64,000 bases of DNA, from assembly GCA_019096195.1 (NCBI GenBank), contig JAGTXK010000075.1:248001-312000 (forward strand), given 5' to 3'. Both the position numbers and the translations under genes were made by a program. Below are positions 32,358 through 59,764 of this stretch, piece by piece (within the stretch, counting starts at the first letter, position 1; every line of letters begins with the position of its first letter). This DNA is from Boletus sp. NGJ. Lineage: Eukaryota; Basidiomycota; Agaricomycetes; Boletales; Boletaceae. Below the pieces are notes generated by a model. That model did not search any database. It had not been told where the DNA came from and saw nothing but the letters and a program-made list of their open reading frames with translations.

Positions 32358-34116
32358 ATGCTGTCGACGCTCCTCAAGAGTAGGACGACCTCTTATACTC
32401 CTCTTGCACGAGCGTGCTTGAGACGCTATTCGACCTCCCCAGGCCCAAACGAGGAGTTAATCCAAGTATTGTCGCGATGCAAGTCCCGTCGTTCAAACGC
32501 GGCGAGAATGCTAACGAGCATTTTAGACATGGAAGAGGAAAAGGCCTCTGCGTCCTCGAATTCTTACAAGCTGCTGGCTTACTCGAAAGCGATCAGTGCC
32601 ATCGGTCAGCTACCCGAGCAAGTCCGGTCGGTCGAGCAAGTCAGACATGCAAGTTCATCCTTGTCCGCGTGATTTACGCTAGTCTCATGCGCCCCACTAG
32701 CTCGAAGGGATAGGTCCACGCATCGCGAAGCGCATAGACGCTTACCTCTCTGGAACTCCCTATGTCCGTGGGTGGTTCACCTCTAGTTTCATTTCACAAT
32801 TTCATACCCCTACGGGCGAAAGGAGCCACCCAGGACAAGGAAAGCTAAAATTCCAGATGCCTCTCCGACGAAGCACACGAAACCCAAACCTGCAAAGACT
32901 CTTGAGGAACTACGCAGAGAACAGGTGGTGTCCTTGTTGTCAGGTGTCAGCGGTCTAGGGTAGGGCAAATCTATTGTCGTCCACCCACGTATTTCATTTC
33001 TTTGTACACAGATCGTCCAAGGCCAACACGCTGTACGACGCAGGTTGTCGATCCTTTCAGGATCTCAGAGCACCCAAATTTCTTCAGATGCTAGGCCGTT
33101 CTCAGCAGGTGAACGCACAATATATGATTGGTCTCGATCGCCTGACTCGTGAACAAGCATCGACCGTGCGTGTACGTATCACATGATACTCGCATTCTCC
33201 CGTTGGTCACTCAATCTGCGCCTCACAACAGGACTTTGTGGCACAGAATATTTCATCCAAATATACTGTTTTGCTGAGCGGTGACTTGTGCGTCTCACAT
33301 CCTTGTGCTCGGGAGCGACTTTGAACATTCTTCCAGCCGGCGTGGAACAGCCAGCGCTCAACGGATCGCCCTTATTGTGCTTCATCCTCAAACCACTGAC
33401 ATATTTCCACCCGAAGGTTCTCCAAGCATTGACTCTACTGTGATACAAAAGAACAGATACGACAGGCTACCCTCTCCTTTTGCAAGTCACCCTGAGACCA
33501 CGGTCAAATTCAAAGTCCTACCAGACACGGCCACGTTTTCCACAGAGATTATTTCGCCACTCGAGTGCCGAGGGCTTCTTGCCACCGCTATCGCTGTTGG
33601 TCCTCAGAAGTGGGATGGAATCATCAGAGTTCCCAAACGTACCGAGACCGAGAAGGACGGAAATGGATGGGAGACAAGGACAGAGAGAATTCAGGGTGTG
33701 CAACAGCATGAAGGGCAATTTTTCAGCGCCGAGATATAGTGAGTCTGATCCGCCAACGTGTGCGTGGCCAGCGACTTGACTGTGACGTTAGCTACGTCCC
33801 ACGTCAGTGTGCAGGTGCATCGTTGATAGCGCTGACAGGCGACCTGCAATTCAACATTGCCATACGAAGAGCTGCGTCCCGACTTGGTCTCCGCCTCAAT
33901 GAATATGGGCTGTGGAGATGGCGAGTGGTGGCCACGACTGATGAAATCGACAAACAAAGGAGTATCGAGCAGCACGGTGGATATTGGGAACTGGTCGCGA
34001 GCGAGAAGGAAGAGGATATTTTTGAGGCAGTCGGGATGGAGTGGGTGGCCCCGGAGAGGAGGAATTTTGCGAATCTGAACGTTGGGTCGAAGAAACGCAA
34101 GACAGAGGCGCTCTGA
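32358..34116 (+). CDS. Family-X DNA polymerase homologue, probably mitochondrial, catalytic aspartates absent
   Basis: Homologue of polymerase beta/lambda without a BRCT domain. The N-terminus is basic and Ser/Thr-rich with RRYSTS, a likely mitochondrial presequence. Then come the 8-kDa helical domain, two helix-hairpin-helix motifs (LEGIGPRIAKRI and the GVSGLGSSKANTLYDAG region), the palm and a thumb with LTGDLQFN and LNEYGLW. In polymerase beta the palm motif GSFRRG is followed by GDMDVLL and later RIDIRLIP, which carry the three metal-binding Asp. Here the aligned segments are GDFRRGTASAQRIAL (Arg and Ala at the Asp positions) and SAEIYYVP (Glu). Introns 33288-33336 and 33739-33791 fix this frame. 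The first intron may use a GC donor. It ends 34 bp from QNG1. Confidence 0.82.
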
Positions 34117-34150: not shown

Positions 34151-35636
34151 CTAGTACCATATACTCCTTATCCTATGGGCAGGCAGGAATTCTACGCTTT
34201 TAATCCCCTCTACTCTATCTCGCCCGGCCTCGATTCTCTTGCCCAAGTCCCAAAGATAAAAATCAATCAACGCGCTATTGACTTGCACCCATGGTCCCTT
34301 CCGGACGTTGCCTCTCAGCCTCAAAATCTCGTCCCTTATACGCTCGACACTGAGGATGCTTGCTGCTCTGATACTGACCTCCACGTCCGATCCTAGCGAA
34401 ATGTCGTCGCCATTCCTCAGCATTTCCTGCAGCGACGGGGGATACACGAGGATGCCAAGGTGATGGAGGATCTGGGGAACGCGGTAGTCCGCGAACATGG
34501 TGAGGGAGTCTATGCAAGGACCGGGTCCGTGCGGGAAGAGTGGATGCGGGGCAGAGGTGTCGGGGGGAAAGAAGGCGGCCCACGTTTCGGCGACGAGAAT
34601 TTGTGCGCGTTTCCAGAAGAAGACTGCGCTCACGTGATGAGAAGAGGAGGAGGAGGAGACAGGGGCGGGTACGTACTCCGATGACCGCCGAGGGATCGCT
34701 CGTCTCTGAAAGAAGGAAAAGTGTCGGTGACGGTCTGGACGAGCTCCAACGCGGTTCCTTGTCCGCGTCGGGATCTCTGGAAGACGTCCAAGAAGCCCGC
34801 GTAGGATCCGCCAAAGCTCTGCACGTGTCATCGGACGGCGATCGATCACGGACCCGATGGATGACGTACTTTGCAGAGGATCGTGCCGACCTCCCTCATG
34901 ATCGCAATCCGCTCTTTGAGTAACGGCAATTCCTCTTTCGACGCCGCGGCAGGACGGAAGACGTGTGCGATTAGCGTGTCGGGACAGTGCACCTCGGACG
35001 CGTAAAACTCCGGATCGGTAATCGGAATGTCTTGTTCCAGAGCTGCACGTGACCAAATCAGCGTCGCGTGTTCCACCTCGATTCACTGGCAGAGACCCAC
35101 CTCGGTTCAGAGCAGCGACAAGACTCCAGTATCCCGTGTGCACAGCACGCGTCTCCGTGTCCCAGCCCTTGCGCCATTCCACCCCGTACCGTTCTGCGCT
35201 CCCTTCCCGTTCTGACCAAAAGCTAAAGTTGAGCGACGAGATCAGGAAAATCCAGTTCAGACACGCTTTCGTGAGCGGGTCCGAGGCCGAGTACGGCTCT
35301 GGTGGGACAAATGTGCAGAGGATGGGTCCGCCATGTCCGTGGTGTGTACGACTCCATGAACATCCTGAGTGAAATCTTGCAGTGTGCGTTGCGTCGTCTA
35401 GATCACCGCAAAAGGATGGACACGTACATATTCAGCAGCCTTCTTTACCCCATCCTCGCTGATGTGTACGATGTTCGTTTCCTAGTTCGACGTCCATGAC
35501 AACTTCGCAGGCCAGCTGGACGGCGACTCACCGCGAGCGCATGTTCGCAGCTAGGCACGACCGGGTTGATGGTCCTCGCGGGTGGCATCGTCGGTTCATC
35601 GCAAAACACCAAAGGGCTTTCCGCAGACGCCATCAT
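34151..35636 (-). CDS. QNG1: Queuosine salvage enzyme QNG1 (DUF2419)
   Basis: Qng1 releases queuine from queuosine 5'-phosphate so the base can be reused for tRNA modification. Recognisable blocks are WIFLISSLNFSFWSE, the YWSLVAALNR segment, SFGGSYAGFLDVF, LVQTVTDTFPSF, the FWKRAQILVAETWAAF block and the family hallmark FADYRVPQ near the C-terminus. Two adjacent ATGs (35636, 35633) are possible starts. Introns follow the ALA, AEY, ALNR, KVR and DERS regions. Near 35,300 the expected chain (YTPRTWRTHPLH into PEPYSASDPLTK) needs a one-base shift; a different splice choice (donor GTGTCC) keeps frame but gives a poorer peptide. It is convergent with the polymerase-X homologue. Confidence 0.85.
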
Positions 35637-46950: not shown

Positions 46951-49900
46951 TTACACATCGTACACAATTCTAGCACCAACCCAAGGGTAGGGATAGTTGT
47001 GTTGGTACCAGTTGCGCACGCTGCGCCTCTCAGCGATCCGCGGGATCGTGGTATAAGACCCTCCAAGCTGTGAAGAAGAGACATTCAACGAAGGATGATC
47101 GCAAGACAGGTTCAAGACAACGTACTACGACTTGGTGATGACCATCAAAGAAATCAGCAGAGTACCTACGGGAATGGTCACTAACCGAACACACGCCAAA
47201 TGGATTTTTCTCACCCAGGGTACAGCTGAGATGGGACAAAGCCCGCAAGTTTCTCTAATACGGTTGAGGTCCATTCCCATACACCGCCGTTGTGTCCCTG
47301 TCCACCACGGTTCTCTACACCGGTCGTAGCACTGAGCGAGCGTCCTGTTAGTACATAGTTCCAGCTGCTCAAGCGAATGTGAAGTCCTTACGGGACGGGA
47401 TGCCAGTTCCTAAATCCGATATTCGCACCACCCTCATAGCCGCACGCGAATTTATCCATGAACAGGCGAAGTTCCGGTTCAGTAGGGAGTCGTCCACCCT
47501 TGACGCTCGCATACACCGACATATTGTCGTAAGAAGTGAGAATGGGCCAGTCCCAAGCAATGGTCATCGACACGGGACCATACAACGAACGGACTCTGAT
47601 CTCCCCGTCTTCGTGCGTCACCCAGCTAGCAGGAAACTCGACTTTGTCCTTCCGGGTACCCGTGTAGAACTCGAAGAATTCGCCGTTGGTGATGGGCCTC
47701 CAAGAGATCCTAAAAGCGTCAGCAGAAACCTGGCGAGATGGACTCTCGTTATCCCAGCCAAAGATATGCCCTTCTACATCTAGCGCCTTAATAGCATCGT
47801 CGGCTTCGATGTCGTCAATGCCGAGAGTAACGGTAGTGGCTTCAATGACGACGGTAGAGTATGTGGGCTTAGGAGAAGCATTCCATGATGCGAGCAGTGA
47901 TTCCCAAGGGGGTGTAATGAAGTCTGGAGGAGGGATTGTTCCATTCCCAGCTCGTTGGATAAGCATATATAATAAAGTCTGACATCGGGTCAAAATGGCA
48001 TCCAGACATAAATGAAAACAAGACATCAACCTCAATGTGTAGTCCCTCGTGCTCGTATGTCATGAAGAGCACTCGAGCAAATTTCCTCGTCAATTGGATA
48101 TTGCCGTTGGATATATCCATGTACAGCTTCGTGAGCCGCTCTCGTACACGTCCCCCGAAGGCAAGGATGCTACTGAGCGATGGCCAATCTTCGGGGTTTC
48201 GTGGGACTTCAGAGTGCGCCTGACAAGACTCCGTTAGCATCTAGAATAGAACGGAGAGGGACACGAACATGGCATTGGGTCGGGTCGTCCACATTAGGGT
48301 CAATACCTCTCTATCCATGGGTAGGATTTTTAGCCGTGTACAGCACAAGATGAGACAACCTACTTCAAAAATGAACTACATTGCAAGGATAATTACGAGT
48401 CACTTCATGAACAGCGGTACAAAAACCAACCTTGAACTCCTCGGGCTGAGTATGAGGTTCTTGCAGCAGACGGGAAAGATGAATGTCCAAGAATGCGGGA
48501 GTGTGACCAAGATAAAACAAGCAAATGTGACGGAGGTCAATAGGCTTCTCGAAAAGCATGGACGATGGAATCATCCGGAGAGTGACGAAGTCCCATGCGT
48601 TCCATATATCTTGCCAATCCCGCATACTCGGAACACCAAACCTTTCACCGATGATTTCTTTAGTGGGCACAGTAGGTGACGACAATAAAGGAAACGCGAA
48701 TGGTGGGCGCTCGAGTAGCCACACGGAGAAGCGTGACGTGCTATCCATCCAACGCTGGATAGGTCGCAAGTTGGCATCAGTGAACAATGTATAGGCGTCT
48801 CTCTCCGAATACTAGAGAGGATGAGTATGAAAGATCTGGCGGTAGACAGCTTTCTACCTTAAGAGACATCTCGATCTTGAGAAGCTCATCTTTGGAGAAA
48901 TAGATCTCCTCGTTGGCGCCTGGGATGGTGATGCGGTGAGAGTGTAGACACTTGTAGAATGCGTCGTGGGTACCTAGAGAAGCGTGAACAAGGGAGCCGC
49001 GATTCGCCGGACCTCGAATAGACTCACGACTGCCTTCATCATAAGAGTTGGTGTATCCCCAGTTACCGAGATCAAAGAGCTCTGAGTCACCGAGAGCCAT
49101 CCCGGCTGCCTTTAGGCCATTCATGATGAAGTTTCTGGTATGACCGTGGGGATCGTTGTAAGCAATCTCGATTTCCTCGCGGCTGTTGTCATGATCGAGA
49201 CCTAGCAGGAGGGTATCTCCATAACCAGCGCGTAATGGCAACGAGCGAAGGAACTGGACATCCTCTCCGCGCGAAAAATTGCCGATAGAGGAGCCTATGA
49301 ATAGAAGGTGGAGCTGTGGTTGTCCTAGCTTCGTCATGTCGGCATCTTGCGTGACTTGTCCGGTGAACGCAGATGGTCCGGGGACAGAGCCTCGACGGGT
49401 ACTCTGAAGCGCATAGCGTTCATGTGGCACGCTGCCAGTGTCGGTATGGACCCCGTCATCAACAGTCTCCTGTAAGCCGCCTTGAAGTACAAAAGCGATG
49501 CCGTTTTCATAGGTGCCAAGCAACCCTTTTGCCTGGACCTTGCCTCCAATAGCGGAACCTGCGTCGGAGTTGCGCAACTGAATCAAAGTCCGTTGGATCT
49601 CTCGTTCTTCGAGATCGAGTGCAAAGTATGTCGCGGAAGGGATGGCGGGGGTTTCTGACACCAAAGCGGCAAGAGCATGCAGTAAATACGAGGTCTTTCT
49701 GATTGCACTAGAATATATGTATCAGCGACGCCTAAATTGTTGATAGAGAGGGTTGGTTCCCAGTGAGACCACGGGTTGGACACATATGTCAGGACAAAAG
49801 TGTTGTTCCAAATGCAGAGAATGGTCCAGATATGACGGAAACTTGACGTGACTCACCCTGCGCCGAGCTCCAGTAAGACCTGGGCTGGTGTGCTTTCACT

Positions 49901-51458: not shown

Positions 51459-59764
<8,306 letters not shown>

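Follow-up and report, generated by a model that had tools for sequence, protein, structure and literature searches.

The 64,000-nucleotide stretch of DNA analyzed here (the window) carries a gene, probably fungal, that encodes a homologue of the family-X DNA polymerases (PolX), and the two metal-binding aspartates known as the DxD pair have almost certainly been lost from its predicted product. The reading we prefer, to which we assign about an even chance, is that a family-X homologue has turned into a pseudoenzyme that acts as a non-catalytic binder of DNA gaps or ends.

Gene model and domain organization

The PolX gene occupies positions 32358-34116 of the + strand. The initial annotation had placed its finding at 33277-33800, a span that falls within the gene and covers the palm only. 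In the spliced model the gene consists of seven exons encoding 473 amino acids, all six introns are of the GT-AG type with lengths of 49-62 nt, and neither frameshifts nor premature stops occur across the 473 codons. The relevant features are listed below.

32358..32639, + strand: exon 1 (spliced model); N-terminus of mitochondrial type (MLSTLLKSRTTSYTPLARACLRRY↓STS), followed by the initial part of the 8-kDa domain
32701..32771, + strand: exon 2 (spliced model); first HhH of the 8-kDa domain, LEGIGPRIAKRIDAYL; 3′ boundary ambiguous
32731-32733, + strand: codon of Arg105 in exon 2, at the position of pol beta Lys72
32834..32959, + strand: exon 3 (spliced model); basic linker and start of the second HhH
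33012..33171, + strand: exon 4 (spliced model, Pfam DNA_pol_lambd_f); fingers, second HhH
33232..33287, + strand: exon 5 (spliced model); start of the palm, KYTVLLSGDF
33288..33336, + strand: intron 5; 49 nt, GTGCGT..CCAG; stop if retained
33337..33738, + strand: exon 6 (spliced model); palm, carries Arg241, Ala243 and Glu364
33362-33364, + strand: codon CGG of Arg241 in exon 6 (Asp190 site)
33368-33370, + strand: codon GCC of Ala243 in exon 6 (Asp192 site)
33731-33733, + strand: codon GAG of Glu364 in exon 6 (Asp256 site)
33739..33791, + strand: intron 6; 53 nt, GTGAGT..TTGAC..TTAG; stop if retained
33792..34116, + strand: exon 7; thumb, LTGDLQFN..LNEYGLW..EEDIFEAVGMEW, C-terminus SKKRKTEAL, stop

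Each of the six introns leads to an early stop if retained singly. The earlier statement that the reading frame is fixed by two of them was borne out in this model. If intron 5 or 6 is retained, translation stops at residue 244 or 366, and the donors of the two agree with the GTRNGT consensus at 6/6 positions. The donor of intron 4 also matches fully, and those of introns 1-3 match at 4, 5 and 5 of the six positions; a full match is found at 146 of the 3889 GT sites of the window. The borders of intron 2 are ambiguous (alternatives were identified by eye). This intron falls in the linker that joins the 8-kDa domain to the fingers, and its borders do not bear on the question of the catalytic residues.

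The family-X markers that had been reported (two HhH motifs, GDFRRG, LTGDLQFN, LNEYGLW and RRYSTS) were all found, and the domains follow the order that defines DNA polymerase family X, i.e., 8-kDa HhH, fingers HhH, palm and thumb. Pfam recognized the thumb (1.1e-16), HHH_8 (2.4e-9) and the lambda fingers (1.3e-8) of the 473-amino acid protein above their cut-offs, and the palm was detected in the expected position with an E-value of 1.9e-4 and 22.1 bits, just under the 25-bit cut-off. Among the best 60 of 96 matches to solved structures, pol beta leads (E 2.3e-15), followed by lambda and mu. For the thumb alone, the best matches among solved structures are a prokaryotic PolX from Thermus (3b0x/3au2) and 4p4m, a pol beta entry that we take to be the Leishmania infantum enzyme. 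Compared with pol beta and nine prokaryotic/phage PolXs, the palm encoded by exon 6 carries long inserts. A Pfam search for a PHP nuclease domain produced no match, and the protein stops after the thumb. Pfam found no BRCT domain in the spliced model, to which an undetected upstream exon could be added. Nothing approaching a cut-off was obtained with NCBIfam and no match with PHROGs. The AlphaFold2 models of exon 7 and exon 6, each predicted alone, were too poor to use (mean pLDDT 38.2 and 34.9, respectively).

Metal-binding triad, nucleotide pocket and lyase site

To locate the metal-binding triad, the window protein was aligned with 11 comparators, comprising the human enzymes pol beta and pol lambda and nine PolX genes taken from named records of plasmids and phages. 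Aspartate is present at each of the three sites in 11/11 comparators, and the window protein has Arg-x-Ala at the DxD pair. The replacement of Asp190 by Arg241 and of Asp192 by Ala243, found in this alignment, also follows from the comparison of GDFRRGTASAQRIALIVLHP with a 20-letter stretch of pol beta, which is free of gaps. A register error around the DxD pair was considered and ruled out, as the palm strand lacks any D or E; there are no acidic residues from Arg233 up to Asp253. The third site, that of pol beta Asp256, is occupied by Glu364, a conservative acidic change located two residues before intron 6.

A misprediction, in which the assembly is wrong or an exon has gone undetected so that the true palm is hidden, is most unlikely. 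The palm score slightly under the Pfam cut-off, the existence of alternatives for introns 2 and 6, and the codons of Ala243 (GCC) and Glu364 (GAG), either of which a single base change would turn into Asp, would agree with such an error. However, the codon of Arg241 (CGG) is three bases away from any Asp codon, and the absence of gaps between GDFRRGTASAQRIALIVLHP and pol beta indicates that the substitutions sit in an otherwise matching exon.

Introns 5 and 6 were varied singly, within about 100 bases and with a minimum intron length of about 40. None of the in-frame alternatives scanned restored the DxD pair. Five in-frame alternatives were obtained for intron 6; three delete the strand of the third site and the other two, listed below, read RLDCDVSYVPRQC, with Asp at this site.

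33698..33771, + strand: alternative intron 6, first form (splice scan); donor GTGCAA; Asp at the Asp256 site
33696..33739, + strand: alternative intron 6, second form (splice scan); 44 nt, donor GTGTGC; Asp at the Asp256 site

Both forms generate RLDCDVSYVP, in which an Asp falls at the position of pol beta Asp256, and raise the palm score to 23.5 bits (33698-33771) and 23.0 bits (33696-33739) versus 22.1 in the main model. Their donors match GTRNGT at 4/6 (GTGCAA) and 5/6 (GTGTGC) positions versus 6/6 for the GTGAGT of the main model. A branch-like site, TTGAC, precedes the end of the main intron by 12 nt, and another, CTGAT, precedes that of the first alternative by 23 nt; none was found within the 44 nt of the second alternative (33696-33739). 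The claim that all three aspartates are lost is thus correct for the DxD pair and overstated for the third site, because the latter is acidic in the main model and in both alternatives. Other splice sites that restore Asp residues had been named as a refutation; at the third site the two weaker forms of intron 6 would supply an Asp, and at the DxD pair no scanned variant does so. The triad reads R-A-E, or R-A-D under an alternative intron 6, and in either form it is altered as in the noncanonical prokaryotic PolXs.

It was also observed that the frame of exon 7 is open upstream (33772-33800, + strand) through the branch-site region, where it reads RLDCDVSYVP. This sequence may be due to chance or may be what is left of a former splice site.

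The nucleotide pocket differs from that of pol beta by the changes S180D (Asp231), G189Q, Y271A, F272L and D276L in one alignment, so that the steric-gate YF reads AL. The same alignment shows other pocket residues conserved, namely Arg149, Arg183, Thr273-Gly274, Asn279, Arg283 and Asn294-Glu295-Tyr296. The residue at the Arg254 site depends on the alignment; it is Arg349, Gln (11-comparator alignment), or Ser362 if no gaps are allowed. The altered DxD pair, together with several changed residues of the dNTP pocket, supports the initial description of the protein as a pseudo-polymerase. In pol beta, the substitution D256A is reported to eliminate polymerase activity (PMC3483300). The absence of the DxD pair suggests that the two-metal mechanism is unavailable to the window protein; the two catalytic metals would not be bound and gaps would not be filled. 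As a polymerase, the protein is very probably dead.

Against a dead triad, Glu364 or the alternative-intron Asp could hold one metal. We consider it very unlikely that the active site has been rebuilt in this way, with Glu364 (or the Asp) and Asp231 of the GDFRRG turn holding one metal for another nucleotidyl-transfer or hydrolytic reaction. Such a site would be in accordance with the acidic nature of the third position, with the change from Ser180 to Asp231, and with the two alternatives for intron 6 that place Asp at the Asp256 site with slightly higher palm scores. It is difficult to reconcile with a DxD strand that has no acidic residue and with alternative donors that match the consensus at 4/6 and 5/6 positions against 6/6 in the main model. 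Furthermore, the AEE triad of the Deinococcus radiodurans PolX, with two acidic residues left, is described as metal-free in the structure (PMC9226535).

The lyase nucleophile of pol beta, Lys72, corresponds to Arg105 in both alignments, and the adjacent Lys lies one residue earlier. Lys72 is conserved in eight of the ten comparators that have letters at this position, and both phage sequences have Glu. At the Lys68 site the window protein has Arg101, and pol lambda likewise has Arg. Two other sites are alignment-dependent; Lys35 corresponds to Ser69 in one alignment and to Lys in the 11-comparator alignment, and Lys84 corresponds to Gly and Thr, respectively. The triple substitution K35A/K68A/K72A is reported to eliminate the lyase activity of pol beta (PMC3483300). 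The suggestion that the protein keeps only the lyase part is weakened by the replacement of the Schiff-base lysine in both alignments. Lyase activity by the known route is likely dead, and 5′-dRP would not be removed in the manner of pol beta. It is plausible that the gap-binding part is kept, considering that the two HhH motifs, R183, N279, R283 and NEY remain.

Conservation was not uniform along the protein. Among the near-invariant columns of the 11 comparators, the window protein keeps 14/17 in the thumb, 3/9 in the palm and 5/12 in the 8-kDa domain. Fisher tests, in which the columns of these three domains, picked on this small comparator set, were treated as independent, gave p values of 0.020 for the thumb versus the palm and 0.007 for the thumb versus the palm plus the 8-kDa domain. 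These proportions suggest that the gene codes for a pseudoenzyme with DNA binding retained. With moderate confidence, the chemistry appears to have been selectively lost and the DNA-gripping shell kept. The thumb-minus-palm identity gap against prokaryotic/phage PolX has a mean of 23.1 points, within the range of 17.2 to 27.7 found for canonical phage-cellular pairs. Codon usage gave no clear coding signal for the PolX gene, the overall score being about 0 bits per codon, and two dynactin stretches supported by Pfam score no higher.

An alternative explanation is recent decay, in which the polymerase is no longer needed and its gene is either a pseudogene at an early stage or a paralogue under relaxed constraint, without a retained role. 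The many near-invariant residues gone from the palm and the 8-kDa domain, the uninformative codon usage and the fact that no orthologue was seen, though the collections searched were prokaryotic or viral, are compatible with it. We regard it nonetheless as improbable; 473 codons extend over seven exons without a frameshift or premature stop, the donors of introns 4-6 are good, and general decay would not spare 14 of the 17 near-invariant columns of the thumb. There is a strong likelihood that the gene is translated and under constraint.

Comparison with known systems and searches for relatives

Prokaryotic PolXs with altered triads account for 809 (27.5%) of the sequences of one study (PMC9226535). 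These noncanonical enzymes, e.g., that of D. radiodurans (AEE), share with the window protein the family-X fold, a substituted Asp triad, and the presence of the 8-kDa and DNA-binding domains. According to the same report, the 8-kDa domain of these enzymes is well conserved, and lyase activity may persist in most of them; the two Deinococcus triad-less PolXs tested showed no polymerase activity and were active as nucleases through PHP. An earlier report had described polymerase activity for the AEE-triad enzyme, and the authors of PMC9226535 found none. The noncanonical PolXs differ in that the PHP nuclease is their working activity and the palm is often shortened (PMC9226535), whereas the window protein has no PHP domain, has palm inserts, has Lys72 replaced and belongs to a eukaryote. 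Judged by its altered triad, it is this group that the window protein most resembles, yet it fails to show the PHP feature.

Human pol beta and pol lambda have the same order of 8-kDa, fingers, palm and thumb domains, no PHP domain, and 24-32% identity by domain; unlike the window protein, they keep the DxD pair, Asp256/490 and Lys72/312. The trypanosomatid pol beta (4p4m) is another beta-like PolX, with LNEYGLF in its thumb. Its identity to the window protein is 28% over 92 thumb residues, below the 34% with human pol beta. Trypanosomatid pol beta is described as mitochondrial in Trypanosoma cruzi, T. brucei and C. fasciculata and as nuclear in Leishmania, and, in contrast to the window protein, its lyase and polymerase domains are described at work in repair (PMC8375306). 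The thumb of the window protein (33793-34113, + strand) is 32-45% identical to prokaryotic/phage PolX (nine loci) versus 25-26% to human beta/lambda. Bacterial import of the thumb was set aside, since the prokaryote-like LNEYGLF is also present in the trypanosomatid enzyme, which makes an ancestral thumb the simpler reading.

The fungal PolXs Aspergillus fumigatus PolX1/PolX2 and Coprinus cinereus Pol lambda and mu, compared by their descriptions, represent the same family in fungi. They differ from the window protein in that AfPolX1 has been shown active, three catalytic aspartates are marked in an alignment legend of the same paper, and the N-termini are longer (PMC12828229). As reported in a survey of 7250 PolXs grouped in 12 clusters, two fungal clusters are near pol lambda and the noncanonical enzymes form a bacterial cluster (PMC12362244). 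Precedents for an inactive polymerase that is kept are the C-terminal module of Pol epsilon and inactivated archaeal polymerases (PMC2669801, PMC2527604, PMC6265327), which are members of family B rather than X.

A tblastn search produced matches in 3 phage and 13 plasmid records, all confined to the C-terminal part of the palm plus the thumb (residues 348-468). In the prokaryotic and in the viral contig collections, patterns of the window protein were matched and no relative was confirmed. No relative was confirmed either when the viral contigs were scanned with human pol beta/lambda and two phage PolXs as queries, which may reflect a low sensitivity of such scans for family X. Being prokaryotic and viral, these collections say nothing about fungi. 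No triad-less eukaryotic PolX was described in the titles and abstracts of the open-access literature searched, supplements aside. A triad-less PolX of eukaryotic origin that lacks PHP and has a damaged lyase site looks like a new form. If this is confirmed, family-X members that have lost polymerase chemistry would not be limited to the nuclease-fused ones of prokaryotes, and a eukaryote would have kept the part of a repair polymerase that grips DNA for a task other than synthesis. Such a natural separation-of-function protein could be used to probe gap binding alone in repair, possibly of mtDNA.

Candidate role, localization and neighborhood

The two HhH motifs and the conserved thumb suggest that gapped or nicked DNA would still be gripped, and a non-catalytic gap or end binder is the likeliest role. 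The protein would then be a DNA-end/gap-binding factor, engaged in gap protection or in the recruitment of other repair proteins. That non-catalytic gap binding is indeed its job is possible, at somewhat less than an even chance. A conserved fungal family of pseudo-PolX proteins can be hypothesized. In its fullest form, which we consider doubtful, the members would be mitochondrial, inactive as polymerase and lyase, and would act as a non-catalytic clamp on gapped mtDNA, e.g., as an accessory of the mitochondrial replicase.

The first 31 residues of the protein are free of acids, five of the first 30 are K/R, and a single RRY↓S motif occupies residues 22-25, presumably as in many mitochondrial presequences. 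The helical moment of the N-terminus is no better than that of shuffled sequences (reached by 1300/2000), and the C-terminus, GSKKRKTEAL with KKRK, resembles what we take to be a monopartite nuclear signal. For the mitochondrial N-terminus proposed initially, the basic, acid-free composition and RRY↓S speak in favor, whereas the helical moment adds no support and the C-terminal KKRK counts against it. A mitochondrial presequence is plausible, and a mitochondrial protein is slightly favored. Mitochondrial action after removal of the presequence would be the weakest step of the proposed mechanism. The protein could instead be a nuclear NHEJ or BER accessory factor with a fortuitously basic N-terminus, as the presumed nuclear signal of GSKKRKTEAL and the 1300/2000 shuffles would suggest. 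This is rather unlikely in view of the acid-free first 31 residues and the cleavage-like RRY↓S motif. In addition, the model has no BRCT domain, and the PolXs of multicellular fungi are reported to have longer N-termini, presumed to bear BRCT (PMC12828229).

Besides a dynactin p62 gene, the window includes the following features.

34151-35431, - strand: queuosine salvage gene (Pfam Q_salvage 9.3e-58); convergent with the PolX gene
47388-49721, - strand: histidine-specific methyltransferase and FGE-sulfatase stretches, close together (Pfam)
51710-59661, + strand: Prp8 splicing factor, several exons (PRO8NT, PROCN, RRM_4, U5_2-snRNA_bdg, JAB, PROCT)

The methyltransferase and FGE-sulfatase pair (47388-49721) is presumably as expected for a fungal ergothioneine synthase. 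With Prp8, dynactin p62, the ergothioneine-type stretches and the queuosine salvage gene, the window looks fungal. The reading frame of the queuosine salvage gene ends about 34 bases past the stop of the PolX gene.
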